A stretch of DNA of 64,000 bases from assembly GCF_017798165.1 (NCBI RefSeq), contig NZ_CP059068.1, forward strand, positions 4,340,001 to 4,404,000. The letters are read 5' to 3'. The notes under the pieces were generated by a model. It worked only from the letters and a program-made list of their open reading frames with translations. It was not told the origin of the DNA and did no database searches. Origin of the DNA: Rhodoferax sp. AJA081-3. GTDB taxonomy: Bacteria; Pseudomonadota; Gammaproteobacteria; Burkholderiales; Burkholderiaceae_C. The position numbers and the translations under genes were made by a program. This document shows positions 1,433 to 61,668 of the stretch, piece by piece. Within the stretch, counting starts at the first letter, position 1, and the number at the start of each line of letters is the position of its first letter.

Positions 1433-1546
1433 TGGCAAAAAGAGTTGGTGTGCAAGAGGTGCACGGAGGTGAAGAGGCGGCTATATTCTGGCATCAAACG
1501 GGCCTGCACCGGCTGTGCCTGCACCCTTGCCAAGGAGTGGATCCCA

Positions 1547-7415: not shown

Positions 7416-7535
7416 CTTGTTTCCTTTGAACACAGGTCAGCAGAACGGCGCGTAGGTTGCGCCGCTGAAGTCCCTTGGCACACACGCATTTGTGGCCAAG
7501 GTCTGCAACCGAGAAGGCACTCTAGGTTGCGGATA

Positions 7536-11682: not shown

Positions 11683-11758
11683 ATCGGGTAGCAGGTTTTG
11701 CTCCGTGTCCCCCGGCCTTCGGCCTCCTCCTTTACCTACGCAAAACCCACTACCCGAT
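11683..11758. terminator. Large imperfect inverted repeat with nested hairpin
   Basis: Two 19-base arms (11683-11701 and 11740-11758) are reverse complements at 17 of 19 positions. Between them is a second small hairpin, GGCC-TTC-GGCC (11714-11724). The element sits just after the 3' end of the seven-gene electron-transfer operon and directly before the MATE gene, both on the minus strand. It probably terminates the operon or insulates the MATE gene; a cruciform-type regulator site is an alternative. Confidence 0.55.
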
Positions 11759-11772
11759 CGATGCCGTGTGGC

Positions 11773-14283
11773 TTACCGCTTAGTACCCGCGTACTGCAGA
11801 AAGTTTTCCGGACTGACCCGCAGCGCCGCACCGGTGGGGCAGGCGCGCACGCAGGCCGGGCCGGCCTTGAGGTCCTTGCACATATCGCACTTGACGGCCT
11901 TCTTCTGGCTGGTCTTGTCACTGTGGTCCACGCCGTGGTCGCTGCCGGGCGACTGGCCTATGCCAAACAACAACCAAGCCAGCAGACCCGCACCACCACT
12001 GCTCTTTTTCTGGGCCGACAGCGGTGCCATCTGGATCACGTCATAAGGGCAGTTCTTCTCGCAGTTGCCGCAGCCTATACAGGCGTCGCTGATGTAGACC
12101 TCGCCATTGGGCGAGCGGTGGATGGCGTCGGGTGGACAGTCCTTCATGCAATGCGGGTGCTCGCAGTGCCGGCAGGACGTGGGCACATGCAGGTTGGCAA
12201 AGGTGGGGCCAGCCTCACGGTCCAGGCGGGAGAAACCGTCGTGGGTGCTGGCGCAAGCCCGCTCGCAGTGGTCGCAGCGCACACACAGGGACTCGTCGAT
12301 CAGCAGCACATCGGTGGCTTCGCCCACACCCTGCTTCAGCAAAAACGAGATCAGGTTGCCCGACTGCGCATCGTCAGCCACGGCCTGGTTGGCCTGGACC
12401 CGCTGGTTGTACTGCGCATTGAGTTGATGGCGCATGCCGGTGTTGCGCGCCAGGATCTCCATGAACTGCTTGGGGTCCAGCAGAATGGCCTCGGTGGGCA
12501 CGGCGGCACGCACCGTGGCCGAGCGGGGTGCGTTCATCATCAGCGCCATTTCGCCCACATAGTTGCCGGCCGACACGTAGGACATCACTACCTCGCGGCC
12601 GCCCAGCACGTGGGAGACCATGACCGAGCCGCGGCGTATCAGGTACAGGCCGTCGGCCACATCACCTTCGTTGAACAGGGCCTCGCCGGTTTTGTATTGT
12701 TTGATGCTGGCACTGGCAACCATGGCGCTGAGGTCGGCTTCGGTCACGTTGCCCGCCACGTATTTGCGCACGGCACGGCGCAGGGCCACCAGGTCCAGGT
12801 TGCGGCGCACCGCATCCACCGTGGCCAGCAGTTTGAGCATGGCGCGCCGCGGGGTCTCTACCAGCATGCAGTCCAGCCCTGCAACCGCGGTGGCGGAGCG
12901 CCGCCGCCCGGAGATCAGTCCCATCTCGCCAAAAAACTGCCCGTGTTCCAGCAGGATGTCGTTGGCCTGGGTGTCGCCCAGGATTTTGACGGTGCCGGAG
13001 ACGATGGAGAAAAACGAGTTGCTGTAGTCGTTGCGTTTGAAAATTTCGGTGCCGGAGCGCAGCAGGCGCAGCTCGCTATCCAGCATCACATCGCGCAGTT
13101 GCAGGGCGGTGAGGCCCTCGAACAGGGGCACACTGCGGGCCACCAAATCCAGCACACCGCTGACACCGCCCAGGTCGGGGAACTGCTTCAGGATTTCGGC
13201 AAACTTCTGGCGCAACAGGGGTTCGTCGGCCGACTCCACGGCGCGGCCCATGATGGTCTCCACCACCTCGTAGCCCTGGTTCATGGCCTGTTTGATCAGC
13301 GGGTAACCGCCCAGCGCACCAATCACATACAGGCCCGGCACACTGGATTCGTAGGTGGTGGACAGCTCGGGCAGTGCCGTGGCCTCGGTGCTGGTAAAAC
13401 GCACACCAAAACTCTCCACCAGTTTGCGGGGTGGTGTGGCACCCAGGCGCGCAATGACGCGGTGGCACTCCACCCGTTCTTCACCACTGGGGGTGTTCAG
13501 CACCACAGAAAGTCGAGGCTTGCTGCGCTTGCCGGCCTGGCGCCGGGACAGGTCCACATGGGAGACCATCATGGTCTTGTTCATGTCGGTATCACCCATG
13601 CTTTGCTGCACGGCTTCGATATGGTCGACCTGGGTGCTGAAGCGGCAGCTGACCAACTGGCTGCGTTCGGCGGCCTGGATGGCGGTCAGGTTGCCGTCCT
13701 TGCAACGGGTGAACTCTTCGTTGCGGTTGAGCAGGATGACGCGGTTGGACGCCTGGGCCAGGGCCAGCGCGTTTTCAATCGCCGCGTCCCCTGCGCCGAC
13801 CACCAGTATGGTCTCCTCACGGTATTCCTCAGGGTTGTCCAGTTGGTACTGGATACCCGGCAGGTGTTCGCCGGGTACGCCCAGCGTGCGCAGGTTGCCT
13901 TGCAGGCCTATGGCCAGCACCACGTGCGCCGCCGACACAATCTCCGAACTGGCCAGTTCGATCTGGAACAGGCCTTTGGCGCCGGTGATGCTGACCACCT
14001 GGGCGTTGTGCTGCACCTGCACGCCGAGCTTGACCACCTCGTCGTTCCATTGGCCCAATATGCTCTCGCGCGAACCGGCCGCAAAACTGACCGGGCTGCG
14101 CAGGCCCAGTATGGCGGGCTCGGCCATCACGTGTTTGCCCTTTTGGTATTTGTAGATGGTGTCGGCCAGATGGTCCTGGGCCTCCAGCAGAATGTGGCGT
14201 ATGCCCAGTGATGCGCAGTGGCCAGCGGCAGAAAGACCGGCGGGGCCGGAGCCGATGATGGCGATGGTGAAGTCAGCTTCCAT
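11773..14283 (-). CDS. Fusion: NAD(P)/FAD oxidoreductase + two cNMP-binding domains + DmsB-like 4x[4Fe-4S] protein
   Basis: An 836-residue cytoplasmic protein with three modules. Residues 1-350 are a thioredoxin-reductase-like flavoprotein with FAD motif GSGPAGLS (11-18) and a second dinucleotide motif GAGDAAIE (163-170). Residues about 385-490 and 515-615 are two cyclic-nucleotide-binding domains, each with the GEM(G/A)L...RRSAT/PRSAT phosphate-binding cassette. Residues 665-820 carry four cysteine clusters (667-677, 704-716, 735-746, 799-816) spaced as in DmsB/NrfC four-cluster ferredoxins. It therefore looks like an NAD(P)H-linked electron entry or exit point whose activity could respond to cAMP or another cNMP. 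No signal peptide is present. It is the last gene of the multiheme operon, 12 bp after the pentaheme gene. Confidence 0.88.
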   Translation of the reverse strand: MEADFTIAIIGSGPAGLSAAGHCASLGIRHILLEAQDHLADTIYKYQKGKHVMAEPAILGLRSPVSFAAGSRESILGQWNDEVVKLGVQVQHNAQVVSITGAKGLFQIELASSEIVSAAHVVLAIGLQGNLRTLGVPGEHLPGIQYQLDNPEEYREETILVVGAGDAAIENALALAQASNRVILLNRNEEFTRCKDGNLTAIQAAERSQLVSCRFSTQVDHIEAVQQSMGDTDMNKTMMVSHVDLSRRQAGKRSKPRLSVVLNTPSGEERVECHRVIARLGATPPRKLVESFGVRFTSTEATALPELSTTYESSVPGLYVIGALGGYPLIKQAMNQGYEVVETIMGRAVESADEPLLRQKFAEILKQFPDLGGVSGVLDLVARSVPLFEGLTALQLRDVMLDSELRLLRSGTEIFKRNDYSNSFFSIVSGTVKILGDTQANDILLEHGQFFGEMGLISGRRRSATAVAGLDCMLVETPRRAMLKLLATVDAVRRNLDLVALRRAVRKYVAGNVTEADLSAMVASASIKQYKTGEALFNEGDVADGLYLIRRGSVMVSHVLGGREVVMSYVSAGNYVGEMALMMNAPRSATVRAAVPTEAILLDPKQFMEILARNTGMRHQLNAQYNQRVQANQAVADDAQSGNLISFLLKQGVGEATDVLLIDESLCVRCDHCERACASTHDGFSRLDREAGPTFANLHVPTSCRHCEHPHCMKDCPPDAIHRSPNGEVYISDACIGCGNCEKNCPYDVIQMAPLSAQKKSSGGAGLLAWLLFGIGQSPGSDHGVDHSDKTSQKKAVKCDMCKDLKAGPACVRACPTGAALRVSPENFLQYAGTKR

Positions 14284-14295
14284 GGCGCATCCTTG

Positions 14296-15639
14296 TTAAC
14301 GTGCGGCAACCAGGCTGCGAAATTCGCGCAAGCGCGACACAAATTCAGCGGGCTTGTAGGCCTCGTCCTTGACCAGCACCGCACGCAGCTGGGCCAGGCC
14401 CTTGTTGTAGGCCGCTGGGTTCTTGATGCTGCCAGTTTGCTGCATGGCGCTGCTCAGGCTGCCCAGCGCCATGGTGGCCTGTTCGGCGCCCACATAGTCG
14501 GGGTACAGGCCGGCCAGGCCGTCGTCTACCAGTAACAAGGCCATGGCGCGCAGGGTGTTGCCGTCAAAGCTGGACATGTTGATCTTTTCACTAGCGGCCT
14601 GTGCCTGTTGGCGCAGTGCCAGGGCTTTGTCGTTCAGCTTGCCACTGCCCGCCAGGGCCTTGTTGAGATCCTGTGCGGCCTGGTTGAAGCGGGTGTACAG
14701 GTCGGCATCCAGCTGGCGCAGGATCAGGCGCAGCATCAGTGCATTGGCATCGTTCAGCCGTATCAGACCCGGTGCAATGCTGGTACCAAAGGCCGTGCGG
14801 GGTTTCCAGCGCTGGTCAGCCATGGGGTGGTGGCAGGCGTGGCAGTCAAACAGCGTGGGCTCGGGGAACACACCGTCGCGGCCGCGCACCGGGTCCACCA
14901 GAATGTCCATCTGGGTACTGACCGCCAGCGCCTGGCCCAGTGCCCAGATCTTGGCATGGTTGCTGGCACCGGCGCCTTTGCGCAGGGTGTAGTCCTTGTC
15001 CGCGGTGAAGTGTGCCGGTTGCAAGTTGGTGAAAGTGGTCAGCTCAAAACTCAGGCGCGGGTGGCCGGCGGCCATGGTGCGGTGGTTGACGTACTTTTCA
15101 GCCGTGCCGAAGTGGCAGGACATACACAGCTTGGCCCGCGCCTGCGGCGCTGCCGCAGGGTACAGGCCGTGGGCCAGGTTGTCCGCATGTGTGACACCGG
15201 GCGCGGTGTGGCTGGCGATCCATTTTTCGGAAGGTCCGTGGCAGCCTTCACACGCCACGCCGTCGGTGATCTTGTGCCGTGCATCCACACGTTCGGGCAT
15301 CGGGTTGTGGGCATGGCAGCCCAGGCATTCACTGGACTCGTGGGCCGGTTTGGCCAGGCCCAGCTTGCTGGCAATGCTGCGCGAACGTTCGTTCAGCAGC
15401 ACGTGGTAGGCCCGTGCGTGTTTGTCCAGCCGGGACCAGACCACGTATTCGTTTTGTGCCACCGGCGAGCTAGGCCAGGTATTGACCGAACCGTGGCACA
15501 GGGAGCTGGCGCAGTTCACCACGCCCAAGGTCTTGTCGGGCGATTGGTCGGGCAGGGGCTGGCCGTGGCTGGTAGCCGAGATGGCCAGTACCAGGAACAG
15601 GGCAAGCCGTCTTGCCAGGGAAGAGATCAGGCCAGTCAT
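14296..15639 (-). CDS. Multiheme cytochrome c, cytochrome c554-like (4 CxxCH + 1 CX4CH)
   Basis: A 447-residue secreted protein: signal peptide (ALFLVLAISATSHG), then heme motifs CASSLCH (43-49, a C-X4-CH form), CLGCH (105-109), CEGCH (130-134), CMSCH (172-176) and CHACH (266-270). The early NCASSLCHGS and CEGCHGPSEKW patterns resemble the cytochrome c554 family. The C-terminal 170 residues are helical and heme-free. It probably shuttles electrons in the periplasm between the membrane-anchored decaheme protein and the outer-membrane side. The ATG at 15639 overlaps the TGA of the preceding decaheme gene (ATGA). Confidence 0.87.
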   Translation of the reverse strand: MTGLISSLARRLALFLVLAISATSHGQPLPDQSPDKTLGVVNCASSLCHGSVNTWPSSPVAQNEYVVWSRLDKHARAYHVLLNERSRSIASKLGLAKPAHESSECLGCHAHNPMPERVDARHKITDGVACEGCHGPSEKWIASHTAPGVTHADNLAHGLYPAAAPQARAKLCMSCHFGTAEKYVNHRTMAAGHPRLSFELTTFTNLQPAHFTADKDYTLRKGAGASNHAKIWALGQALAVSTQMDILVDPVRGRDGVFPEPTLFDCHACHHPMADQRWKPRTAFGTSIAPGLIRLNDANALMLRLILRQLDADLYTRFNQAAQDLNKALAGSGKLNDKALALRQQAQAASEKINMSSFDGNTLRAMALLLVDDGLAGLYPDYVGAEQATMALGSLSSAMQQTGSIKNPAAYNKGLAQLRAVLVKDEAYKPAEFVSRLREFRSLVAAR

Positions 15640-18600
15640 CGTGTGGCTCCCAGAGGTGCTGCTGACAGGGCTTTGCTGCCGGGTTGCGGTGTGTCCGCCA
15701 CGGTCCATACGCTGCCATCCTTGCGCAGGTAGAGCTTGTGCATTTCCGGCAGCGTGAAGGGGCGCGAACCTATGCGCCCGAACACGGCTATCTGACCGCC
15801 GGTCTCGTCCACCGCGCGGTCCCGGTCCAGACCCTTGGACAATGCCAGCGCACGTGATGCGGTGGGCCGCCAGGCCACCACCTGCGGTGCGGGGGCTGGC
15901 GAAAAGCCGTAGAACTTGGGCTGGGTATCGGGTGCGGTGAGCTGCACCACCTTGAGGCCGTTCACACCGTCAGCCACATAGGCAAACAGCGAGGCATTGG
16001 TGGAGCCGACGACCACATCCTGCGTGTCGCTCAACGTGCCGCCCATGTCCGCCTTGCCTGTTGTATCGGTGTTGGTAAAGCGTTGTGCGACCAGTGGTTT
16101 TTCGGGCCTTTCTATATCGACCACCACCAGGCCCTCGGCGCCTGCCGCCACATAGGCATAGGTGCGGGCCAGGTAGACCTTGCGGGCGTCGCGCAACCCT
16201 ACCCGGGCCTCGGGCACCAGGCGCGGTTTGGCGGGGTGGGTGATGTCCACCAACTCCAATCCCGCAGCCGTGGTCACCCACAGATAACGAAATTGCACGG
16301 CGCTGGCGCGCGCATCCTGCAGCGGCACGACGGCGGCCACGCTGGGTTTGAGGGGGTCGTCCACGTTGACAACGACAAGCCCTTTGTCGGCTGTGATGTA
16401 CAGGTAGTGGCCGGCCACCACCACATGGCGCGCACCATCCAGAATGCCGGGTTTGCGGGTGTCGCCGTTCCAGGTCAGCGCACGCTGCAAGAAGTTGTTG
16501 CGGAACTCCCCGTCGGCCAGCGTGTCCACGTTCACAACAATCAGACCTTCTTTCGCATCGCTGATGAAGGCGTAGTGGTAGATGGCATGGAAAGGCTGCT
16601 CCTGGTTGGTGCTGCGCATCAGCTCACCCTGGTTGCGCAGTGGTGCGATGGGCTGGTTGGTCGGCAGGGCGACGCAAGTGGCGTTGCTGGAGGCGATATG
16701 GGTCTGCTGGCCCAGCTTGGAGAAGGGGGCGGAAATGATGCGCTGTGAGACGCCTTTGTTGGCGATGGACGCCACGTCATAGACCCTCATGCCGCCTGCG
16801 CCCTCGGCTGCATACAAGTACTCGCCACGCAGGCTGATGCACTGGGCGGCCCCCCCCGTGCCGTGGCTGTGCGCCTCTTGTAGTTTGCCGTCGGCCTTCT
16901 GGTGGTTCTGGTACCAGTCCGGGTAGGCGTAGCGGTGCAGGTAGCTGCCGATCACGGCCTGCGGTTCATCCCATTCGGTGACCTGCACGGCCTCCACATG
17001 TTCTGCCTCGCCCACCCAGGTGTTGTGGCCTATGAAGTTCACGAAGTTGGTGCCTTGCAATAGCAGCTGCGCCATGATGGCGTTGTTGTCATTGGCCTGG
17101 CTGATGTGGCAGTCGGAGCAGGTCTTGGTCTCGGTCTTGCGCTCGGTGTGCGGGTAGTGGGGCGCAAAGGCCTGTGACGAGAATCCGCTGGCCGCCACCG
17201 GTGCCTGCTGGATATAAATCTTTTCGCGGTTGGCATTGGTGGACGACAACACCAGCGCGGAGCTGGAGCGTATGGGTGACACCTTGGCACCTTTGACGGG
17301 GCCGTGGCGCCCTAGTTGGAACACGTCTTCGCGCACCACCTGCGGGTTGTAGGTGGCGTAATTGCGGGTTTCGCCACCCTCGTAGTGCAGGCGCTCGGTC
17401 TTGGCATTGGCCTGTATCGGCAGGTGGCAGCCGGAGCAACTGGTGGTCCACGACAGGTGGCAGCTGTAACAGGTCATGTTGTCGTCACCGTGGGCATACG
17501 CCTGGCCGGTGGCGGCGGCGCCCCATTTGCCGTTTTGCCCCGCTTCGCCGGCATGCATCAACTTGGCACGGGCGGCCTTTTCGTTGTACTGCGCGTGACC
17601 TGGCGTCACCGAATCCTTGACCAGGGACATTTCCCACTCCAGCGCCGGGTCGACCGCCGAGCGCTGGAACAGCTTGCCCCCGCGCCACTCAAAACGCTTG
17701 CGCCCGTCCTGCGTGCGCAGCAGGGCCATGTCCATGCCGCCGGGCCGAGCGGCCGGGCCGGTGGTGAAAAGTTTGGGGTAGGCGTTGGCGCTGCCGTGGC
17801 AGTCCTTGCAGTCCACTTCAATGGCGGCGGCCACTTCGCCATAGATATGGCCGTTGCCGTGGTTGTCTTGCGAGAAATGGCAGTCCACACAGTGCATGCC
17901 CACGTCCAGATGAACCGAAGTCAGGTGCACGGCCTTTTTGAATTTTTGTGGATCGGTGTCGGCAACGGGCTGGTTGTCGGTATCCAGCAGCGTGCCTTTG
18001 CGGTCGCGCTTGAACACCTGGCGAAAATTCCAGCCGTGGCCGTGGTAGTCGGCAAACTGCGTGTCGTTGAGGGTCGGGTTCAGCTCCGACACTTTCTTCG
18101 AGAACTCAGGATCGCCCCACAGGCCACGGGTGGCGGCTTCTTCGGGGTTGCGTGCCAGTATCTTGCGGGACTCTTCGGCGGAGGGGTATTTCTGTTGTTT
18201 GGGCCACATGCTGGGGGCGTCGGTCTCGTAGTCCCACATGGTGGTGCCGTAGAAAGAGTTCACAAACACATTGGGCTGGTGCATGTGGCAGGTCATGCAC
18301 TGTGAGGACGGTATGGCACGTGTGAACTGGTGCGAGATCGGGTGGCCGGATTGATCCTTGGGAATGGTGGCGTCGCGTGTGGCCGCTTTGCCCTCGTGGC
18401 CAAAACGCGCATACGGTCCCGAATGTTTGGGGTCCCTATCGTTGGCATAGGGGCTGTGGCAGGCAGTGCAACCGGAAGAGCGGTAGTCGCCAGGCTGCTC
18501 GTTGGTGCCTAGAAACCACAGGTGAGGGTCATTCAGCCGGGTCTTGGTGATGTTGATCAGCGGCACGGCGATGCGGCTGCCGGTGCCGGGTCCGCGGTTG

Positions 18601-19469
18601 GATTGTTTGATGTCGGGGCGGCCCGGTTCGTCCAGCTTTTGCAGGCCACCACTCAGGTTGGGCTGGCCGATTTCGGGGAACTGTGTGCCGATGACGCGGC
18701 CCCCACGTTCAAACACGCGGAACACATCGGCGGGCGGCACGGTTTCCCAGGCGGGCAGGGGCAGCAGCATGTCCAGGATGCCCATGCCCACCATATGCGG
18801 ATTGGTGGGCAGGGGGTTCTTCAGCAATGCGGGTTCGCTCAGCGCGGTGTAAGACTCACCCAGCCGGTAACGCTTGTAGGGCAGGATGCCGTTGTTGTAC
18901 GACGCTCCACCCCACAGCATGGCACTGGTGGCCATCAGGCTGCGTTCACTGGCCTGCACGGTGGCCAGGTGGCAGGCACCGCAGGCCTGGCGCGCTACCC
19001 GCATATCGCCGGGGTTGATGAAGCGTATGAAGGCGGGTGACTCGCGGTTGAGCTGGGTGAAGCTGCCCGGCGGATTGGCCGACGACGGGTAGTTCCACTG
19101 GATGGGAAAACGTGGCAACACATGGGCTGCCTTTAGTGCGCTTTGGTACGGGGCATCGGCTGCCTTGGTTTGGGCTGGCTTTTGGATGGAGGCATTGCCG
19201 CCGTGGCAATCGGTACAGCCCAGCACCACGCCGGGGTTGGCATGCATGCTGCGGTGGTCTTTGGCGGCGCTTGCATTGGTGTCGCCCAGGCCGGTATGGC
19301 AGGACTCACAGCCCACCGACTTCTCCAGTGCCTGGGCCAGGGTTTGGCGTGCCGGTGCATCGGGTGCAACCATCGGTGTTTCGCCGCCTTGAACCGCCCA
19401 CAGCGACGCCGCGACCGTGACCATCAGCAAGCCGCACAACCACAGAGCAGATTTGAAGGGCGTGGTCAT
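15636..19469 (-). CDS. Decaheme cytochrome c with C-terminal LVIVD beta-propeller
   Basis: A 1277-residue exported protein. An N-terminal signal/anchor (ALWLCGLLMVTVAASLWA) precedes ten CxxCH sites near residues 54, 85, 163, 334, 391, 527, 554, 667, 678 and 784. From about 850 to 1220 the protein consists of LVIVD-type repeats (YLYAAEGAGGMRVYDVAS, LYITADKGLVVVNVDDPLKP, YAYVAAGAEGLVVVDIERPEKP), which fold as a surface beta-propeller. No class-specific active-site motif of nitrite reductase or HAO was recognised. It may be the outer electron-exchange or substrate-binding subunit, with the propeller mediating contact at the cell surface. It lies 15 bp after the barrel gene and overlaps the next gene. 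Confidence 0.9.
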   Translation of the reverse strand: MTTPFKSALWLCGLLMVTVAASLWAVQGGETPMVAPDAPARQTLAQALEKSVGCESCHTGLGDTNASAAKDHRSMHANPGVVLGCTDCHGGNASIQKPAQTKAADAPYQSALKAAHVLPRFPIQWNYPSSANPPGSFTQLNRESPAFIRFINPGDMRVARQACGACHLATVQASERSLMATSAMLWGGASYNNGILPYKRYRLGESYTALSEPALLKNPLPTNPHMVGMGILDMLLPLPAWETVPPADVFRVFERGGRVIGTQFPEIGQPNLSGGLQKLDEPGRPDIKQSNRGPGTGSRIAVPLINITKTRLNDPHLWFLGTNEQPGDYRSSGCTACHSPYANDRDPKHSGPYARFGHEGKAATRDATIPKDQSGHPISHQFTRAIPSSQCMTCHMHQPNVFVNSFYGTTMWDYETDAPSMWPKQQKYPSAEESRKILARNPEEAATRGLWGDPEFSKKVSELNPTLNDTQFADYHGHGWNFRQVFKRDRKGTLLDTDNQPVADTDPQKFKKAVHLTSVHLDVGMHCVDCHFSQDNHGNGHIYGEVAAAIEVDCKDCHGSANAYPKLFTTGPAARPGGMDMALLRTQDGRKRFEWRGGKLFQRSAVDPALEWEMSLVKDSVTPGHAQYNEKAARAKLMHAGEAGQNGKWGAAATGQAYAHGDDNMTCYSCHLSWTTSCSGCHLPIQANAKTERLHYEGGETRNYATYNPQVVREDVFQLGRHGPVKGAKVSPIRSSSALVLSSTNANREKIYIQQAPVAASGFSSQAFAPHYPHTERKTETKTCSDCHISQANDNNAIMAQLLLQGTNFVNFIGHNTWVGEAEHVEAVQVTEWDEPQAVIGSYLHRYAYPDWYQNHQKADGKLQEAHSHGTGGAAQCISLRGEYLYAAEGAGGMRVYDVASIANKGVSQRIISAPFSKLGQQTHIASSNATCVALPTNQPIAPLRNQGELMRSTNQEQPFHAIYHYAFISDAKEGLIVVNVDTLADGEFRNNFLQRALTWNGDTRKPGILDGARHVVVAGHYLYITADKGLVVVNVDDPLKPSVAAVVPLQDARASAVQFRYLWVTTAAGLELVDITHPAKPRLVPEARVGLRDARKVYLARTYAYVAAGAEGLVVVDIERPEKPLVAQRFTNTDTTGKADMGGTLSDTQDVVVGSTNASLFAYVADGVNGLKVVQLTAPDTQPKFYGFSPAPAPQVVAWRPTASRALALSKGLDRDRAVDETGGQIAVFGRIGSRPFTLPEMHKLYLRKDGSVWTVADTPQPGSKALSAAPLGATR

Positions 19470-19484
19470 TGTGGTCTTGTGCTG

Positions 19485-21293
19485 TTAGAAGGTGAGCAAC
19501 AGGTTGACCAGCACCGAGTAGGGCCGCTCGCCGCTATCAAACAATTGCCTGTAGCCCCGACCGGGCTCCAGCGTGGCCACCGACGCGTTTATCACCACGT
19601 TTTGTGTGCTGAAGGGGCGGACCTGCACACCCACGGAGAGGTCGGTGCCCAGGTGGCGATCCACCGGCCCTTGGTTGCGCAGGTACTGCAACACGGAGGT
19701 GTCGGCAAAGGAAATGCTGGACAGGTTGACGAGCACCCGCACCTGCGGCGTTATGTCCATGTCTGCGCCCACACCCAACAACTGCAGGCCAGGGTTCACA
19801 AAATTGGATTGCCCCTGGTCCTTGCTGGAACGCAGGCTGGGCAACACACCATTGCGCCCGGACAGGGCCACACCACCACCGCCGATCAACGGAATAGCCT
19901 GGCGTATCCAGTAACTGGTGTCCGCCCCGGCAATTTGCGGGTTCTCGAAGATGGCATCAAAGCCGGTAGCGCGGCCGTCAAACGGGTCTTTGTCACCGGT
20001 GGACAGGATGCAAGTGGCGCGCAGGCGCAGCCAGTCAAAGTCGCGTGACAGTTCGGCCGCCGCAAAACCGGCTTCAATGCGCTGGGATTGTTGGGCGATG
20101 GGGTCGTAGCTGGCGTTACCCACGGCGGCATACAGCGCGGTCGTCAGGTTCCAGCGGCCAAAGTGGCCATCGCCGTTGGCGCCGAGGTAGGTCACGTCGT
20201 AGTCGCGGCCACGTACATCGCCGGTGATGGCCGGGCGCACCTGAAAGCCATTGCGGTCGTAGTAGTCATCGCCACCCTCGCGGTTGCGGTTGTGGGCGAT
20301 GGTGAGTTGTGTGGTGTGGCCCAGCACCGGCCAGTCCTGCTGGTAGGCATTGGCGACAAACGTGTCGTCGCGGCGCATGCGCTGGGACACATCGTTCAGC
20401 CCCGAATTGGTGTCCTTCTCAAAGCGCCGCAACCAGGCCAGGTTGTACTGCAGGCGATTACTGTTGCGGTTGCCAAACAGGCGCGCACCCAGGGCCTGGT
20501 CATTGAACAGGAAGCCGCGGAAATCGGTGGTGAAGGGCTGTATGCCAACGCGCAGCGAGTCAAAGTCGTAATGGTCCGACACATTGCGCAGGTGCACATC
20601 GGCAAAGGCCTCCTGCACACCAAAGTGCCGGTCCTGGCGCGTGGTGCCTGTGCGTGGATCAACGTTCAAGCCACGCACTTCTTCTAAGCGGGCATCGGTC
20701 GCGTTGAAAGCGCCGGTGAACTTGAACTCGTAGTCTGGTGGTTTGAAGGTGGTGTTGCCCTTCACCACCGAGGCGCTAACGATGACGGTTTGTGCGAATA
20801 CGGTCTGGCGGCCCTGGCCAAACACATCGTTGGCCTGTGGTCGCGCCGCCGACTGCGCGCCTACGGGTGTAGGCAGGTTGCGGGCTTCGACCAGGGTGTC
20901 CGACACCACACCCAGGTTCAAAAACCAGTCCGGCCCCCAACGGCGAAACGGTTCAAACGGGCGGTCACCTTTGAGCGTGTTCTGGTTGTACGGGTCCCAG
21001 CGACGATCCGGCACGCCCAGCTGTTCCACCAGCCGCCAGCGGTCGGGAATGGGCAGGCTGACGCGTGGGTCCAGCCGCTCGGGTGGGGGTACTTGGCGGG
21101 GGTCGATGTCGGGCAGTGTGAAGGTAAGCGGCTCGGACTGGGCACGTTTGAGTTCGATGGCGGGCTCGTTCTCAGATGGTGGTGGTACAGCCTGCGCGCA
21201 GGCCCAGGACGCCGTCAGCGCAGAGACCGCCAGCGACAGGGCGGTGCGCCGTGCTGGGCCCGGTTTCAAGAAGGGTGTCACAAGCCGGCGCAT
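19485..21293 (-). CDS. Outer-membrane beta-barrel protein of the multiheme operon
   Basis: A 602-residue protein with a signal peptide (LSLAVSALTASWACAQ) and a series of alternating amphipathic strands rich in Tyr, Phe, Asn and Arg (FNATDARLEEVRGLNVDP, NRLQYNLAWLRRFEKD, GHFGRWNLTTALYAAVGNASYD), ending in the barrel signature SVLVNLLLTF. It lacks the N-terminal CxxC of MtrB-type porins, so the family is not MtrB as far as I can see. Its position between the lipoprotein and the decaheme gene suggests a porin that houses or docks the cytochromes in the outer membrane. Its first bases overlap the preceding gene by 16 bp. Confidence 0.8.
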   Translation of the reverse strand: MRRLVTPFLKPGPARRTALSLAVSALTASWACAQAVPPPSENEPAIELKRAQSEPLTFTLPDIDPRQVPPPERLDPRVSLPIPDRWRLVEQLGVPDRRWDPYNQNTLKGDRPFEPFRRWGPDWFLNLGVVSDTLVEARNLPTPVGAQSAARPQANDVFGQGRQTVFAQTVIVSASVVKGNTTFKPPDYEFKFTGAFNATDARLEEVRGLNVDPRTGTTRQDRHFGVQEAFADVHLRNVSDHYDFDSLRVGIQPFTTDFRGFLFNDQALGARLFGNRNSNRLQYNLAWLRRFEKDTNSGLNDVSQRMRRDDTFVANAYQQDWPVLGHTTQLTIAHNRNREGGDDYYDRNGFQVRPAITGDVRGRDYDVTYLGANGDGHFGRWNLTTALYAAVGNASYDPIAQQSQRIEAGFAAAELSRDFDWLRLRATCILSTGDKDPFDGRATGFDAIFENPQIAGADTSYWIRQAIPLIGGGGVALSGRNGVLPSLRSSKDQGQSNFVNPGLQLLGVGADMDITPQVRVLVNLSSISFADTSVLQYLRNQGPVDRHLGTDLSVGVQVRPFSTQNVVINASVATLEPGRGYRQLFDSGERPYSVLVNLLLTF

Positions 21294-23179
21294 ACGTTTT
21301 GTGCGTCGCTGTTGTTATACGGGGCCTGCGGGCATTGCACATAACGCAGCGGTCCGCCGGGCAGGGCCAGGCTGTCGGCTCGCATGTTGGTGGGGGCGTG
21401 GCCCAGCCCTGTACCCAAAATGCGTGATGCGTTGGCAATGCCCAGGAAGGCGACCATATCGTCCTGGTCCACCCCGTCACCCGATACACCGACTGCACCA
21501 ACCAGCTGTGCCGTACTGCCGCTCACACGGTACAGCGGAAAGCCACCAGGAAAGATCTGCAGCCCATTCTTCAGGTTGGGTAGGCCAGTGCATCCTACGG
21601 CGGGCAGGGGTGGTGTGCCGGTAATGGCATTGATGGAGAGGTCCAGCTGCAGGCCGGTGCTGAAGGGGCTCCACGCCGGAAGCGGTTTGGACAGGGGCCC
21701 GTTGCCGGTGGCGGTTATGCCGTCAGGGAAGAGTGGGCGGGCTAGGTTGCCCACGCTGCGGGCACTAAAGGCCAGGCCGTCCGACAGCGCAGTGGGTCGG
21801 TTCAGAAAGTTGCGCAGCTGGGTCACATAGCTGCCTATGGACGATGTGGCGACAGGATTCAGGTAGCTGGCATCGGGCAATGCCTGCAGTGCAGCGCCAC
21901 TGCCGGGGTTGGAAAAAAAGGCGGCGCTGCGGGCCTTTTGCACAGATACATCCAAGGAGAAGACCGGTGCATCGGGGGAGCGGGCAATCCCCAGTATGTC
22001 GCCATCCACACCCACGACCGAGACGGTAATTTGGGCGGTGGAGCCGGAGGGTTTGCGAATCTGTGCACGGCTGCGGTTGGCCACGTCCAGCGCAGAAGCC
22101 AGCAACTGGCGGGCTTCGGTGGCGGTAACCAGGCCGTCGGTGCTTGCACGGGGCGGGTACAGGTTGTTGTTGGCTCCGTCCACCACGATATAGGCGTTGT
22201 GTGTGGCAAAGCCTGCGCTGTCCGCACGCAAGCCCGAGTCCACACTGCCAAAGGCCACACCTGGCCGGACGGGTGGATCGAAATAGCCCGCCACCGCCAG
22301 CAGGCTGCCCGGCAGTGTGGACAGCCCGGGTGTTGCTGTGCTTGCACCGCCGGCGACTGCATCCACATAACGCAGGCTGCGCCCATCCAGTGTGATGCGG
22401 TTGGCGGTGATGTCGGCTGGCGCCTCGAAGCCCCGCACCGCAGCCAGCGCGAGCTGTTCATCGAGGTCGTTGTCGATATTGCGGATGTCCACATCCAGCC
22501 CGTACACACCATCGGCCATTACACCCACGCCGCCGACCAGGCGCCCACCCTTGTACACCGGCAGCCCACCAGGATCGGCAGACAGGCCCAGGGGGGCACG
22601 CTTGGGTCCCAGGCTGGCGTCGGACTGCTTGCGCATCAGGTCAGAACAACCCAGCTGTGAAAACTGCACACCAAACAAAGGCCCCGACGGCTGGTTGGCC
22701 TCCTGCGGGTTGAAGTTTTGCTGCACGATTTGGCTGGCAGTGCGGGTGGAAAAAGCATTGCCCGCGCTGGACAGATAGGCGCCGGTCAGGGCCTTGCTGA
22801 TAGCGGCCAACGTGCTGGGCAATGTGTCCACCTGCTCCAGCCCGCCGCGCACGCCGCGGCCACCGTTTATGCGAAAGGTACTGGCCGCGCCGGGCATGCT
22901 GAACACCGCCAGCACATTGCCCACGCGGTCGGTCACCGCAATGGTGGCGCGTGCACCCAGGGCCTGGGCTTGCACAACGGCCTGGGACACCAGGGTTTCC
23001 ACCTCGGCAGTACTTAGTGTGTCGGCGGCACAGCTATTGCCGCAGCCGGGCACGACCGCAGGCGCCGCTGCAGGGGCGCTACCACCGCTACCACCGCAGG
23101 CCAGCAGCGTCAGGGCCAGTGCCCAAACCAGCCATTTCCCACGTTGGGCCCATGGGGGCTGAGTGATGGGCGTTGTCAT
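21278..23179 (-). CDS. Lipoprotein with two GlcG/HbpS-type heme-binding-like domains
   Basis: The 633-residue product has a lipobox (LTLLACGGSGG) and an Ala/Pro-rich linker. Two divergent copies of the GlcG/HbpS (DUF336) fold follow: residues about 55-270 (LVSQAVVQAQALGARATIAVTDRVGNVLAVF ... LVGGVGVMADGV) and about 360-620 (LLASALDVANRSRAQI ... ISVVGVDGDILGIAR-like ... LVGAVGVSGDGVDQDD). HbpS-like proteins bind heme or act as redox-sensing partners. Both copies carry long insertions. It likely sits on the outer membrane next to the barrel. It overlaps the FHA-cytochrome gene (ATGA) and the barrel gene (16 bp), so it is translationally coupled. Confidence 0.8.
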   Translation of the reverse strand: MTTPITQPPWAQRGKWLVWALALTLLACGGSGGSAPAAAPAVVPGCGNSCAADTLSTAEVETLVSQAVVQAQALGARATIAVTDRVGNVLAVFSMPGAASTFRINGGRGVRGGLEQVDTLPSTLAAISKALTGAYLSSAGNAFSTRTASQIVQQNFNPQEANQPSGPLFGVQFSQLGCSDLMRKQSDASLGPKRAPLGLSADPGGLPVYKGGRLVGGVGVMADGVYGLDVDIRNIDNDLDEQLALAAVRGFEAPADITANRITLDGRSLRYVDAVAGGASTATPGLSTLPGSLLAVAGYFDPPVRPGVAFGSVDSGLRADSAGFATHNAYIVVDGANNNLYPPRASTDGLVTATEARQLLASALDVANRSRAQIRKPSGSTAQITVSVVGVDGDILGIARSPDAPVFSLDVSVQKARSAAFFSNPGSGAALQALPDASYLNPVATSSIGSYVTQLRNFLNRPTALSDGLAFSARSVGNLARPLFPDGITATGNGPLSKPLPAWSPFSTGLQLDLSINAITGTPPLPAVGCTGLPNLKNGLQIFPGGFPLYRVSGSTAQLVGAVGVSGDGVDQDDMVAFLGIANASRILGTGLGHAPTNMRADSLALPGGPLRYVQCPQAPYNNSDAQNVCAGL

Positions 23180-24945
23180 GGCGCAGAAGCCGCTGGGCTT
23201 GGGCGGGCCTGCCCGGTCTTGGTGGCAGCAAAACTGGCATGTACAACGGGGCTGTGGAAGTCATGGCAGCTGTTGCACTGGCTGATTACCTTGTCCGGCA
23301 GGGCCACGTTCAGGTTGAGCCGGTGGGTGCCGATGTGGCAATTGCGGCAGGTGGTGATGGAGGGAATCAGGATATCCGTGCTGGCCTTGGATTGTGCGGC
23401 TGCGTGGCAACTGCTGCAGGTGGCGTTGGCGTGTTGTGCATGGGCAAATTTGGATTTGGGCAACCAATGGTCATTGCCCAAAACCGGCTGCACCTGCCAG
23501 TCCGGCAGACTATCGGCGCCCGGGCTGGCCCCGCGGGTGATGCTGTGGCAGGTCAGGCAGGTGCCTTTGGGGTTTTCAAACATGTCGGTGGCGGCGGCCA
23601 GCGTCTTGTCCTGCACCCAGCGTGCGGCGGTGCTGGAGAGGGCGCGTGTTGCAGGGATCTGTGGGCCCTGCAGCAAGGAGTTGACGGTGACCACCTGGGA
23701 GGGCGTTTTTTCCAGCACCAGCGCAGAAAAGCGGTCGCGCAAAGCCTGGGTGACCGGCGCGGGCTTGGCATGCGGCACCTGGCGGGCGGGGCTTTGGGCG
23801 TCCATGCCCAATTGGTGGCAACGGATACAGGCCTGCTCCATTCGGACCGGCTGGAAGCGGACCTGGGCGCTATCGAGCAGGTGGCAACTGTTGCACTGCA
23901 GGACAACCCGCCCGCCCTTGCCGCTGGGGCCATCAGGGCTTCTGACGCCCAGGATGGACAGGTGGACGTCGTGCGGAAATTTGAGGCCGCTGGCCTCCTG
24001 GAGCGTAGGCGTGTGGGCGAAGCGCTGTAGCACATCCGGGTTGGCGCTGACCTTCATGGTCAAGCGAAACTCGGGGTGGGAGGTTGCAAAGTCGCCCACA
24101 TTGGGCAGGTTGCTGGTGGGGGCCACGGTCTGGACATTGCTGTGGCATTGTTCACAGCCCACCGCATCAACCTTTTTCATGCTGTCCTCGCCCTGGTGCT
24201 CCTTGTGGCAGTTGGCGCAGCGCTCAGCGCCAAAAACCTTGGCCTGCAGGCTCCTGTGGGACGGTATGTGTGGCCCCGCAGACTGGTGGCACGAGACACA
24301 TGCCAGGTCACGCACCCGTTCAAACGGTTTGGTGTGGCAGTTCTGGCATTGGTTGCCAATGGGTTTATGGGCCGAGGAGATGGGGCCAGGGTTCCAGATG
24401 GCGTCCAGCTTGACAGGGGCCGGGCCCTCCAGCGTCAACACCATAGGCTCGTAAGCCTGCCAGAGTGGCAGTACCAGCAATACCAGGCCCAGCAGCAGTG
24501 CCGCCAACCACGACAGGCTGCGCAGGCCGACCAGCGACCGGCGAAAGCCGCCTTGTGAGGGGGCCGTGTCGGCACGGGTTTGGCGCACCGGTTTGTGGGT
24601 GAACTGCAGCTTGAGCAGGGGCTGGGTGATGTCAGGCCCGTGGTCCACTTCCGTGACGACAAACTCAAACGGCCCGATCAGGATCACCTGCCCGGGTGCC
24701 AAGCGCACTAGGTCTGCCGCGCGGCCGTCTACCTGTACCGTGCCACCCACACCTTCCAGAATCAGGTAGCCGTCCTCGGCGCGGCGGATACTGGCGTGCT
24801 CCAGCCGCACCTGGGGCTCTGGCAGGTAAATCTTGCAGGCGGCGGCGCGCCCCAGGCTCAGGGTCTCAGATACCGTAGCCCGTGCCACCCGGGAGGCGGT
24901 TTCTCCGCCCTGCGCCGTGGTTTCTACGATGGTGCAGCGGATCAT
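23176..24945 (-). CDS. FHA domain - transmembrane - decaheme cytochrome c fusion
   Basis: A 589-residue protein with no cleavable signal. Residues 1-105 form an FHA phosphothreonine-binding domain (SLGRAAACKIYLPEPQVRLEHASI). Residues 145-162 are a single membrane helix (LAALLLGLVLLVLPLW). Residues 200-561 carry ten CxxCH motifs (200, 216, 243, 264, 351, 373, 463, 510, 533, 557). This predicts an inner-membrane cytochrome with its FHA head in the cytoplasm and its hemes in the periplasm, comparable in position to NapC/CymA but unrelated in sequence. The FHA head could dock a phosphorylated partner. It lies 6 bp after the cytochrome b gene. Confidence 0.9.
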   Translation of the reverse strand: MIRCTIVETTAQGGETASRVARATVSETLSLGRAAACKIYLPEPQVRLEHASIRRAEDGYLILEGVGGTVQVDGRAADLVRLAPGQVILIGPFEFVVTEVDHGPDITQPLLKLQFTHKPVRQTRADTAPSQGGFRRSLVGLRSLSWLAALLLGLVLLVLPLWQAYEPMVLTLEGPAPVKLDAIWNPGPISSAHKPIGNQCQNCHTKPFERVRDLACVSCHQSAGPHIPSHRSLQAKVFGAERCANCHKEHQGEDSMKKVDAVGCEQCHSNVQTVAPTSNLPNVGDFATSHPEFRLTMKVSANPDVLQRFAHTPTLQEASGLKFPHDVHLSILGVRSPDGPSGKGGRVVLQCNSCHLLDSAQVRFQPVRMEQACIRCHQLGMDAQSPARQVPHAKPAPVTQALRDRFSALVLEKTPSQVVTVNSLLQGPQIPATRALSSTAARWVQDKTLAAATDMFENPKGTCLTCHSITRGASPGADSLPDWQVQPVLGNDHWLPKSKFAHAQHANATCSSCHAAAQSKASTDILIPSITTCRNCHIGTHRLNLNVALPDKVISQCNSCHDFHSPVVHASFAATKTGQARPSPAASAP

Positions 24946-24951
24946 GCGGTG

Positions 24952-25803
24952 CTACCAGTAAATGAATACTGACACGATGTGCGCCACCAGCGCCACCAGC
25001 AGCCCCATGGACAGCGGAACATGCAGCCACAGCCACAGCCGCAGCTTGGCCGTCAGGCGGTGGGCCTTGCGGATCCGGTCAACCAGGCCTTTGCGCCGCA
25101 CCATTTCGCCATAGATCTCGCGGCCTGCGCGGGCAGATGCCGCGTCTATGTTCTGGTTCAGCCGCTCCATAACGCTGATGGCGGCCGTCGTCGGACAGCC
25201 TTTGGCGACCGTGCCTAGCAGGTTCTCCAGTGCGGTACCCTGCAGCCGGGTGTTGTTGGCGGCGTCCAGTATCAGCGTGTTGTATTGGTCGGGCAGGGTG
25301 AGTGCCAGGCGCTGGGCCTGCGCGTCGATGTCCTGCAACTGCAGCATCATGGACGACAGGGTGTCGTCACCCATGGTGGCGGTCAGACGCGAGGGCACAC
25401 GGCTGAAAACTACCACTCCATAGATGCCGCTGCCAACCACCACCCACATCAACAGGTAGGCTGCGGAGTGGTTGTTCCAGCCCAGCTCAAAACCGCTGTG
25501 CAGGGTGGCCACAATGACCACGGCGCATCCCAGGTAGACATGGGCCGACAACCAGCCCTGTGTGTTGGAACTGCTGGTGTAGTGGCGCTTGCGAATCCCC
25601 AGCCACGCCAGCCAGACCACCATGCTGGTGGCGACCACTCCGAAAAAATAGCCGGGCCAGGTTCCGCCGTAACTCATCTTTCCCGGTGTGTGGAAGACAT
25701 ACAGGCGGTGCCACACATAAAACAGGGTGCTCAGGGCAACCAGCCACCACGCCAGCTTGAGGTAGCGGAAATGCCGATACTCCAGAAAACCCAGATGTTT
25801 CAT
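24952..25803 (-). CDS. Di-heme cytochrome b-like membrane protein
   Basis: The 283-residue product has five membrane helices. H88 and H102 lie on helix 3 (AHVYLGCAVVIVATLHSGF) and H261 and H275 on helix 5 (LHVPLSMGLLVALVAHIVSVF). Two His pairs, each 14 residues apart on two helices, are the standard ligand set for two stacked b hemes in quinol-oxidising membrane subunits. A soluble helical segment of about 110 residues separates helices 4 and 5. As the first gene of the operon it is the probable quinone-linked gate to the multiheme chain. I start at ATG 25803; an in-frame start at 25827 would add eight residues. Confidence 0.85.
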   Translation of the reverse strand: MKHLGFLEYRHFRYLKLAWWLVALSTLFYVWHRLYVFHTPGKMSYGGTWPGYFFGVVATSMVVWLAWLGIRKRHYTSSSNTQGWLSAHVYLGCAVVIVATLHSGFELGWNNHSAAYLLMWVVVGSGIYGVVVFSRVPSRLTATMGDDTLSSMMLQLQDIDAQAQRLALTLPDQYNTLILDAANNTRLQGTALENLLGTVAKGCPTTAAISVMERLNQNIDAASARAGREIYGEMVRRKGLVDRIRKAHRLTAKLRLWLWLHVPLSMGLLVALVAHIVSVFIYW

Positions 25804-25979
25804 GCAGGCCCCTGTCAGATCCCGCACGGTGTACGGAGGAAATGGGATTTCAGATCATACGGGCAGACCACCAGCCAGCGGTACATTCGTAACAATTTGA
25901 TGCACGGACGCGACGGCGCTGCGCGGTTGGGCATTGGGTATAGTGCTGCGGTGTTCAACCGTCCACTGAGGAGCCGACC

Positions 25980-26522
25980 ATGGTCAAGAAAATTGTTGTG
26001 GGGCTATTGGCCGCCATTGCGCTGCTGCTCATCTTTGCCGCCACCCGCCCTGACAGCTTTCGCGTAGAGCGCCGCATTGCCCTCCAGGCGGACCCTGCCA
26101 AGGTCTATGCCTTGCTCAATGACTTTCACCATTTCCCTAGCTGGTCCCCCTGGCAAAGCCTAGACCCTTCTATGAAGGTCACCTACAGCGGTGCCGCGAG
26201 TGGGCAGGGCGCGGTCTACGAGTGGTCGGGCAATGACGCCGTGGGTGCAGGGCGCATGGAAATACTCAAAACCGTGCCCAACACCAGCGTGACCGTCAAG
26301 CTTGACTTTCTCAAACCCTTTGAAGCCCGCAACACCGCCGAATACACAGTGGCCGCTGCCGGTGGCACGACAACGGTGACCTGGGCCATGTACGGCCCCA
26401 GTCCCTTCATCTCCAAAGTCATGGGCGTGTTTGTTAGCATGGACAGCATGATTGGCAAAGACTTTGAACGCGGTCTGGCCAATCTCAAGGCCGTTGCCGA
26501 AAAGCCAGCCGCTGCCCCCTAA
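25980..26522 (+). CDS. SRPBCC (START/polyketide-cyclase fold) protein
   Basis: A 180-residue protein with an N-terminal signal anchor (IVVGLLAAIALLLIFAATRP) followed by a SRPBCC lipid-binding fold (FRVERRIALQADPAKVYALLNDFHHFPSWSPW ... TTTVTWAMYGPSPFISKVMGVF). Such proteins bind hydrophobic ligands; no enzyme activity is assigned. ATG 25980 is preceded by AGGAG. It is divergent from the multiheme operon, with about 175 bp between them, and lies 42 bp before serC. Confidence 0.85.
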   Translation: MVKKIVVGLLAAIALLLIFAATRPDSFRVERRIALQADPAKVYALLNDFHHFPSWSPWQSLDPSMKVTYSGAASGQGAVYEWSGNDAVGAGRMEILKTVPNTSVTVKLDFLKPFEARNTAEYTVAAAGGTTTVTWAMYGPSPFISKVMGVFVSMDSMIGKDFERGLANLKAVAEKPAAAP

Positions 26523-26564
26523 CCCTTTGGGTTTCCACTTTAGATTTTTCGACCCGAGACCACG

Positions 26565-27683
26565 ATGCAACCCACGGTTAAACCCCAGAACCCCCACTTT
26601 TCTTCAGGCCCCTGCAGCAAGCGCCCGGGCTACGATGTTTCCAAGCTGCAACTGGATACGCTGGGCCGTTCACACCGCTCCGCGATAGGCAAGAAGGCGC
26701 TGGGTCTGGCCTGTTCCGAGACGGCCCGTATCCTGGGCCTGCCTGCCGGCTACCGGGTGGCGGTGGTGCCCGCATCGGACACCGGTGCGGTGGAGATGGC
26801 GTTGTGGTCCCTGCTGGGGCCACGCGGTGTGGATGTGCTGGCCTGGGAAACCTTTGGCGCCACCTGGGTCAACGACATCGTCAACCAGCTCAAGCTGCCC
26901 GGTGTGAATGTCATCGACGCGCCCTATGGTGTGCTGCCGGACTTGGGCCGCGTGAACTTTGACAACGATGTGGTCTTTCCCTGGAACGGCACCACCTCGG
27001 GTGTGAAAGTGCCCAACGGCGACTGGATTCCGTCAGACCGTGCCGGCCTGAGCATTTGCGACGCCACTTCGGCTGTATTCGCGATGGAACTGCCCTGGGA
27101 CAAGCTGGACGTCGCCACCTTCTCCTGGCAAAAGGTGTTGGGTGGTGAAGGCGGGCACGGCATGCTGGTGCTGAGCCCACGCGCCGTGGCCCGGCTGGAA
27201 AGTTACACACCGCCCTGGCCCCTGCCCAAAATCTTCCGCATGACGGCCAATGGCAAGCTGATGGAAAGCCTGTTCCAGGGTGACACCATCAACACACCGT
27301 CCATGTTGTGTGTGGCTGACTACCTGGACGCACTGGCCTGGGTGGACAGCCTGGGGGGTGTGCAAGCCGTCATGGCGCGCAGCCAGGCCAACCTGAAGAT
27401 CATCGAGGACTTCGTCGCCACCCACGACTGGATTTCCTTTTTGGCCCAGGACCCGGCCACCCGCTCCAACACCAGTGTGTGTTTGACGCTGGCCGTCAGC
27501 GATGCGCAGGTCAAGCAAATGGTGGCCCTGATCGAGGCCCAGGGCGTGGCCTATGACATTGGCGCCTACAAAGACGCACCGGCGGGCCTGCGTATCTGGT
27601 GCGGCGCCACGGTGGATGCGGCGGACCTGCAGGCCCTGCTGCCCTGGTTGGTCTGGGCCTATGCACAGGTGACTGCAACCTAA
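26565..27683 (+). CDS. serC: Phosphoserine aminotransferase
   Basis: A 372-residue PLP enzyme of class V aminotransferase fold, of the SerC subtype found in alphaproteobacteria, archaea and some betaproteobacteria ([15 protein letters not shown] start; [35 protein letters not shown] with the PLP lysine in WQK). It converts 3-phosphohydroxypyruvate and glutamate to phosphoserine and 2-oxoglutarate in serine synthesis. No other serine genes are adjacent. Repeat copy B follows and separates it from the convergent kinase gene. Confidence 0.9.
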
Positions 27684-43795: not shown

Positions 43796-43839
43796 AATTG
43801 CAAATCCCACCCCGAGTCGCAAGGCTTCCTGGAGTTGCA

Positions 43840-61131: not shown

Positions 61132-61641
61132 TCAGGCAGCGTCCTTGCTGAGAAAGTCCACCAACGCGCCATTGACCCGGCGCAGGCGCTGGCTCAGCAG
61201 CCGCGTCACCCGCAGCAGCAGCTTGATGCCCAGGGCCTCGTTGACCATCAAAATGCGTTCAAACTGGGCCTTGGGCAGCAGGGCCAGCACACAGGCTTCG
61301 GTGGCGGAGCAAGAGGCAGATCGCTTCTCACCGTCAATAGCGGCCATTTCACCAAAGGTGCGCCCTGCCACGATATGGGTCACAAACTGGGCAACCCCTG
61401 CGGCATCCTGCTTGCGCACTTCGATCTGGCCGGACAGCAGCAGACCCATGGCATCACCGTCGTCGCCTTCTTCAAACAAGAGGTCGCCCGCTTTGGCGCG
61501 GTAACCGGCCATGTGGGAGCTGAGCGTGTCGAGCTCTTCCCACGACCAGTCCTTGAACAGCGGTGAACGCGACAGCGATTCGCAAACCTCAATGCGAAAC
61601 GCGCGGGACTTGGGGATGGCTTCGAGTGTGTGGGTGTGCAT
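61132..61641 (-). CDS. Stand-alone cyclic-nucleotide-binding domain protein
   Basis: A 169-residue protein with one CNBD (LFKDWSWEELDTLSSHMAGYRAKAGDLLFEEGDDGDAMGLLLSGQIEV ... AGRTFGEMAAIDGEKRSASCSA) and a C-terminal helix, but no DNA-binding domain. The phosphate-binding cassette GEMAAIDGEKRSA keeps the conserved Glu and Arg. It may be a cNMP-dependent regulatory subunit. Its effect partner is unknown; two cyclase genes are in the same window. Confidence 0.87.
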   Translation of the reverse strand: MHTHTLEAIPKSRAFRIEVCESLSRSPLFKDWSWEELDTLSSHMAGYRAKAGDLLFEEGDDGDAMGLLLSGQIEVRKQDAAGVAQFVTHIVAGRTFGEMAAIDGEKRSASCSATEACVLALLPKAQFERILMVNEALGIKLLLRVTRLLSQRLRRVNGALVDFLSKDAA

Positions 61642-61668
61642 GGGGGAGCAGTTTATCGGGTTGATCCG

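Follow-up and report, generated by a model that had tools for sequence, protein, structure and literature searches.

Among the described systems closest to the locus treated here are the PCC4 clusters of He et al. 2017 (PMC5566968), which, in the part of that paper available to us, comprise four-, five- and ten-heme cytochromes, a porin, the membrane protein IMP and redox genes. A pair of WX3HX13H motifs together with SGXXG was read there as the mark of a di-heme b-type protein. A report on a Sterkfontein ghost-rock metagenome (PMC13264449, June 2026) describes, in its available part, 11 “group 1” clusters in which a large decaheme gene of 4–5 kbp lies beside a porin of ~20 strands, with a ferredoxin-NADP reductase nearby in seven of the 11. 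The Geobacter ext cluster, extHIJKLMNOPQS (PMC5877670, also available in part), joins a porin and 4-, 5-, 10- and 12-heme cytochromes to a cytochrome b and an Fe-S protein. Here we analyze a locus in Rhodoferax sp. AJA081-3 (single-contig genome, 5.17 Mb) that is like the ext cluster in its overall plan and that, as in MtrCAB and MtoAB, places a porin beside a decaheme cytochrome. It consists of seven open reading frames (ORFs) packed on the minus strand at positions 11773–25827 of the stretch of 64,000 nucleotides that was analyzed, hereafter the window.

We propose that these seven genes encode a single trans-envelope electron chain, a reading to which we give a probability of roughly 0.58. 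The chain may be linked to NAD(P)H or to quinone, may end at an outer-membrane oxidoreductase, and is possibly gated by cyclic nucleotides, which would be unusual for such a chain. NAD(P)H would reduce the FAD domain of FADFeS (11773–14283), a protein with a Bdr/TrxR-like flavin domain, two cyclic-nucleotide-binding (cNMP) domains that probably tune electron entry, and a ferredoxin part with four [4Fe-4S] motifs. From the FAD, electrons would cross the four clusters to the two b hemes of IMP (24952–25827), a putative di-heme b membrane protein, with or without involvement of the quinone pool. They would then pass to FHA10 (23176–24945), a membrane-anchored decaheme protein with an FHA-like domain, and on to periplasmic c5 (14296–15708), a c554-like cytochrome. 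We refer to these four proteins as the inner half. In the outer half, c5 would feed an outer-membrane complex of LVIVD10 (15636–19469), a ten-heme cytochrome with a C-terminal LVIVD propeller, OMP (19485–21293), a predicted outer-membrane barrel, and LP (21278–23179), a predicted lipoprotein. The complex would exchange electrons with a partner at or beyond the outer membrane, the outward direction being favored. We build this reading on the gene content, the heme and cluster motifs, conservation, co-inheritance, and the inner half, which is homologous to PCC4-type loci and in nature is paired with two different outer halves; from these we infer each electron-transfer step, its direction, the gating and the partner.

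The set recurs across many genomes, far beyond chance. An eight-row alignment of LVIVD10, scanned against a genome collection, gave at least 595 pattern matches, with relatives of LVIVD10 encoded in at least 586 of these stretches, and the best 80 loci were kept. By BLASTP, all seven proteins are present in 41 of these 80, and 47 of the 80 are shorter than full flanks. Among the 33 loci with full flanks, 31 hold either the complete set (24) or the set complete but for c5 (seven). The first-pass annotation of this DNA had looked to conservation of the whole gene order in other Burkholderiales, and to a lack of co-occurrence as grounds for giving up the idea. Co-occurrence is plain from the 24 full-flank loci, and the set is kept well beyond Burkholderiales, but a fixed order holds only for LP-OMP-LVIVD10 (33/33); the remaining genes shift or invert. 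Loci L050, L054, L058, L068 and L082 are labeled Bordetella parapertussis, Klebsiella pneumoniae or Marinimicrobia metagenome-assembled genomes (MAGs), labels that look doubtful for operon-bearing contigs.

The two halves are also inherited together. In a sample of 398 genomes from the phylum, LVIVD10 gave 21 matches (11 strong, ten at 61.2 bits or less) and the IMP profile gave 33 (12 at 316 bits or more, three at 240–254, 18 at 72.4 or less). All 11 genomes with a strong LVIVD10 match also have a strong IMP match; in the twelfth strong-IMP genome, G213, LP and OMP are followed by the contig end. Strong LVIVD10 and strong IMP matches lie far apart or on separate contigs in G405, G272 and G450. 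Across 51 loci, pairwise distances for six of the proteins correlate at 0.735–0.876 (top permutation value, 0.194), a pattern that shared operon inheritance alone can also produce and that to this extent belongs with the points against our reading given below. Several carrier genera are not known to respire metals. Should the chain operate in the way proposed, electron exchange across the envelope would be common among aerobic heterotrophs.

How does this set relate to PCC4? Among 289 genomes drawn from the class to which G358 belongs, 43 matched IMP, of which 27 scored at least 320 bits and 16 no more than 79. LVIVD10 occurs in 20 of the 27 strong-IMP genomes, once as a fragment, and in none of the 16 weak ones. 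From both genome draws, 12 regions around weak IMP matches were fetched, and PCC4-type loci among them were assigned by the published description of PCC4, not by that paper's sequences. Six regions (L191, L205–L209) are complete, with a five-heme cytochrome, a porin, an FNR/Fer2 protein, a four-heme c554-like cytochrome, a cNMP-Fer4 protein, IMP and a ten-heme cytochrome. Another four (L186, L187, L188, L190) hold only part of the PCC4-type set, some at contig ends, and L189 and L192 look PCC3-like, their cytochromes carrying 21 or 24 hemes. The PCC4 profiles had L186, L187, L191 and L194 as seeds, so that these four match by construction, which is not the case for L205–L209 and L202.

Profile comparison with the PCC4-type counterparts gave probabilities of 99.5% for IMP (E 2.7e-23), 99.9% for FHA10 and 99.5% for c5, and by this measure the three proteins are homologous to them. 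The FADFeS profile scores 168–206 bits in nine PCC4-type loci, over the cNMP-Fer4 part. Common to the window and to PCC4, as far as its available account goes, are an IMP carrying SGXXG and two WX3HX13H motifs, a ten-heme and a c554-like cytochrome that are homologous between the two, a cNMP/Fer4 protein and some porin; an extracellular cytochrome is evident in neither. The outer halves differ. OMP and the PCC4-type porin are unrelated (hhalign probability 0.3%, E 0.19), LVIVD10 and the five-heme cytochrome compare at 52.6% (E 1.4e-4) without being clear homologues, and LP, OMP and LVIVD10 have no match in the six complete PCC4-type regions. The PCC4-type five-heme cytochrome (600–700 residues) has no clear counterpart in the window, where the heme counts are 10, 10 and 4+1. 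Furthermore, PCC4-type loci carry the flavin part on an FNR/2Fe-2S gene of its own, whereas in the window a Bdr/TrxR-like domain is fused to the cNMP/Fer4 part. In PCC3 (He et al. 2017), IMP is weakly related (62–79 bits in the two PCC3-like loci); these loci encode very heme-dense cytochromes, and G664 and G206 have no LVIVD10 match.

Seven of the strong-IMP genomes in the 289-genome draw lack LVIVD10. In two of them, G504 and G544, window-type FADFeS, IMP, FHA10 and c5 adjoin a PCC4-type five-heme cytochrome and porin, again with no LVIVD10 match. The five-heme cytochrome and porin of G544, which is not a profile seed, score 832 and 545 bits; the G504 pair, itself a seed, is 35% and 27% identical to the L191 pair. 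G555 is intermediate, its ten-heme protein scoring 292 bits with the window profile and 194 with the PCC4 profile, and no FADFeS was seen in its stretch. In G474, LP sits where a contig ends, and the contig of G650 is 4.8 kb long. Because the window-type inner half stands with an outer half of the PCC4 type in G504 and G544, one inner half may be able to serve two different outer halves. We suggest tentatively, as a doubtful extension, a modular system of the Pseudomonadota in which an NAD(P)H-fed, cyclic-nucleotide-gated inner module would plug into at least two unrelated outer modules, with LP-OMP-LVIVD10 as a new propeller-bearing oxidoreductase. With two outer halves found naturally on one inner half, the role of the outer module can be tested directly.

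The inner half is already covered in kind by the available part of He et al. 2017; the outer half is another module, of which hardly any description exists. The “group 1” clusters probably include a window-type outer half, compared by description only. In both, a large decaheme gene adjoins a porin, although the window gene measures 3.8 kb and the OMP model has 18 strands, and the “group 1” account, in its available part, makes no mention of a lipoprotein, a b-type subunit, a propeller, or cNMP or FHA domains, all of which occur in the window set. We found no fuller account of this cluster in the open-licence PMC literature, and none in the available parts of PMC10654088, PMC7399161 and PMC10734462; among the papers listed by searches of the same literature for LVIVD with cytochrome, one methanogen paper was the only match. 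The description of the pathway as apparently undescribed in the first-pass annotation survives insofar as Pfam and NCBIfam gave no full-length match of the set to a characterized operon, and is weakened insofar as the inner half is homologous to PCC4-type loci and “group 1” probably includes the arrangement.

Several specific identities were considered and rejected or weakened. For membership in the ext cluster, the matches shown include a single one, weak and local, between LVIVD10 and ExtM (70.6 bits, cut-off 800). A conduit of the MtrAB, MtoAB or PioAB type does not fit OMP, which has no MtrB/PioB match in Pfam or NCBIfam, is modeled with 18 strands and, as had been noted from the sequence at the outset, has no CXXC (present in 1 of 47 aligned rows). 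For an MtrA-type (DmsE family) decaheme, TIGR03508 scored 23.3 bits with FHA10 and 20.4 with c5, against a cut-off of 192.2. Models for NrfH, NrfB-like proteins and HmcA all matched below cut-off. A search of the host genome with TIGR03509 gave no match, but its controls were silent too, so that no absence follows.

Domains and motifs agree with the initial view that every layer of the envelope is served by a protein of the set, and with its estimate of about 25 c-type hemes: FHA10 and LVIVD10 have ten each, and c5 has five (four CXXCH and one CX4CH). The two cNMP-binding domains of FADFeS and the HbpS-like domains of LP go beyond that account. FADFeS, assigned by domain and profile matches and by alignment, keeps all 16 cluster cysteines of its ferredoxin in 21 of 21 rows, and its flavin-domain profile matches a ferredoxin-NADP reductase chain (3ab1). 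In the cNMP cassette, G, E and R of the first domain are each kept in 21/21 rows; in the second, G and R are kept in 21/21 and E in 17/21. IMP, aligned in 21 rows, has WX3HX13H at residues 92 and 265 and SGXXG, as SGIYG, at 133. FHA10 matches the FHA and cytochrome c3/c7 families of Pfam and has ten CXXCH, a single transmembrane helix at 143–161, and exactly ten further histidines besides those of the heme motifs that are at least 90% conserved (21 rows). Its FHA domain was rejected as a canonical phosphothreonine sensor: at the presumed key positions, R is found in 15 of the 19 rows that have a residue at its site, Ser in two rows at the Ser site, and N and D in eight rows each at the Asn site. 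In c5 (PF13435), the cysteines and histidine of CX4CH are invariant in 16 rows, and a comparison with solved structures by sequence found cytochrome c554 over part of the length (E 3.1e-05). L184 (6844–10203) and L185 (3046–6420) each encode FADFeS and IMP as a single fused frame of ~1,120 residues, followed by a nine-heme FHA10; the genomes of both loci have no LVIVD10 match.

The outer-half proteins are harder to place. LP has HbpS-like domains (PF03928) and, by eye, LLAC close to its N-terminus. A lipobox pattern scan, for which rows were N-terminally trimmed and outside whose pattern the LLAC of the window LP falls, matched 9/20 rows of LP, 3/45 of LVIVD10, 1/47 of OMP and 9/16 of c5, the last being at least partly noise caused by the heme motif. 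OMP has no Pfam or NCBIfam match; its AlphaFold2 model has 18 barrel strands (mean predicted local distance difference test score, pLDDT, 84.7). LVIVD10, assigned by domain match, CXXCH counts and model, has ten CXXCH in 45/45 rows, and between alignment positions 37 and 749 it has 15 histidines besides the ten of the heme motifs that are at least 90% conserved. Its model includes the propeller, with a weak heme part (mean pLDDT 64.1). Solved relatives sought by sequence for LVIVD10, OMP and IMP were none above chance. Stop-to-stop LVIVD10 frames in other genomes reach 1,512 residues. Distant relatives of its heme part (frames of 764–857 residues, 10–12 hemes) have no second multiheme gene in L115, L117, L118 and L119; in L116 the relative lies beside a five-heme gene, near genes that by eye resemble those for bc1 subunits.

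Does the outer half pass electrons out of the cell? Several points weigh against our reading here, and electron exit through this operon is only putative. The 50 best solved matches of the OMP model are AlgE (the top match), OprD/Occ-type and other substrate porins, and LVIVD10 is not wire-like. Its heme part spends ~86 residues per heme, taking an estimated boundary at residue 860, and among six proteins compared LVIVD10 shows the highest conservation (mean identity 0.656); low heme density and high conservation are more in keeping with a specific enzyme than with a generic wire. Nor is a lipidated cytochrome evident; LVIVD10 has few lipobox matches in its trimmed rows. Two of the 33 full-flank loci have only LP-OMP-LVIVD10 within 10 kb. 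Conversely, G681 and G496 have the inner half with c5 and no outer half within ~20 kb, and G094 and G212 have a FADFeS-IMP fusion and FHA10 with no outer half within 18–20 kb. We found no biochemistry on these proteins.

The barrel model, the low heme density, the rare LVIVD10 lipobox and the high conservation keep alive an alternative that we consider unlikely: a substrate-specific envelope oxidoreductase, in which the barrel would admit a soluble compound that LVIVD10 reduces or oxidizes within the periplasm or on the periplasmic side of the outer membrane, electrons staying inside that membrane, much the arrangement discussed for ExtI of Geobacter in selenite and tellurite reduction. The local resemblance of LVIVD10 to ExtM is consistent with this, as is the role of ExtI in the reduction of selenite and tellurite but not Fe(III) (PMC5877670, available part); however, no other Ext model is among the NCBIfam matches shown, and not every Ext protein need have a model. 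Also in favor, four of five regions of 19.5 kb around distant relatives of the heme part hold no second multiheme gene, and the fifth has a five-heme neighbor. Against this alternative, the 15 extra conserved histidines suffice to ligate all ten LVIVD10 hemes, so that no open heme is evident, and the inner half is found joined to a proposed porin-cytochrome half as well.

The carriers Steroidobacter, Parahaliea, Duganella and Sphingobium are known as ordinary aerobic heterotrophs, which speaks against electron uptake, in which the same chain would work in the inward direction, with Fe(II), Mn(II) or a cathode as donor and quinone or NAD(P)+ as acceptor. Uptake is very improbable even though locus L075 is titled as a Haliea MAG named Biocath and PCC4 is described, in the available text, in iron-oxidizing Zetaproteobacteria and in Hyphomicrobium from pyrite-oxidizing and water-filter settings (PMC5566968), since a carbon fixation pathway is present in just 3 of 36 PCC-bearing MAGs and electron export is favored in the available part of that study (PMC13264449).

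The operon is accessory and probably moves horizontally, because it is sparse in the genus, missing between conserved neighbors, unshared in its flanks and present on plasmids. LVIVD10 occurs in only 2 of 37 same-genus genomes, the host included. In G003, matches to window positions 1–2902 and 25930–27676 lie ~130 bp apart and the operon is missing; it is also missing in G022, where genes that by eye are regulator-like lie in the ~3 kb separating a MATE gene from SRPBCC/SerC genes. G009 carries the operon on one contig and the SRPBCC gene on another. None of five window genes that flank the operon was found in the best 80 loci. Among 72,556 plasmids there were 15 matches, 13 of which cover at least 80% of LVIVD10 at a single site (12 Sphingobium, one Sphingopyxis), and on an S. 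herbicidovorans plasmid typed as conjugative the annotated neighbors fit the whole seven-gene set.

The close packing reported initially is as described: along the listed ORFs, from IMP to FADFeS, the gaps are 6, -4, -16, 15, -73 and 12 bp. Two genes probably start later than their longest ORFs. The IMP start is placed at ATG 25803 (residue 9) because homologues begin there and AGGGG stands just before it; for c5, the candidate is ATG 15639, whose ATGA forms a 4-bp overlap with the LVIVD10 stop. A search upstream of the operon found no promoter-like site, and the one terminator-like site, at 11592–11577, lies within the next gene (0.3 expected by chance). The host genome also encodes a CcmF/NrfE-type maturation protein, above cut-off. 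Antisense to FADFeS, an open frame of 837 codons (11698–14211) is probably the shadow of a high-GC gene. Elsewhere in the window, a single-domain cNMP-binding protein adjoins an NHL-repeat protein (61135–63015), a fusion of FAD_binding_3 and NADH:flavin oxidoreductase domains (43798–46191) lies near an acyl-CoA dehydrogenase gene, and a TonB-dependent receptor is encoded at 4551–7433.

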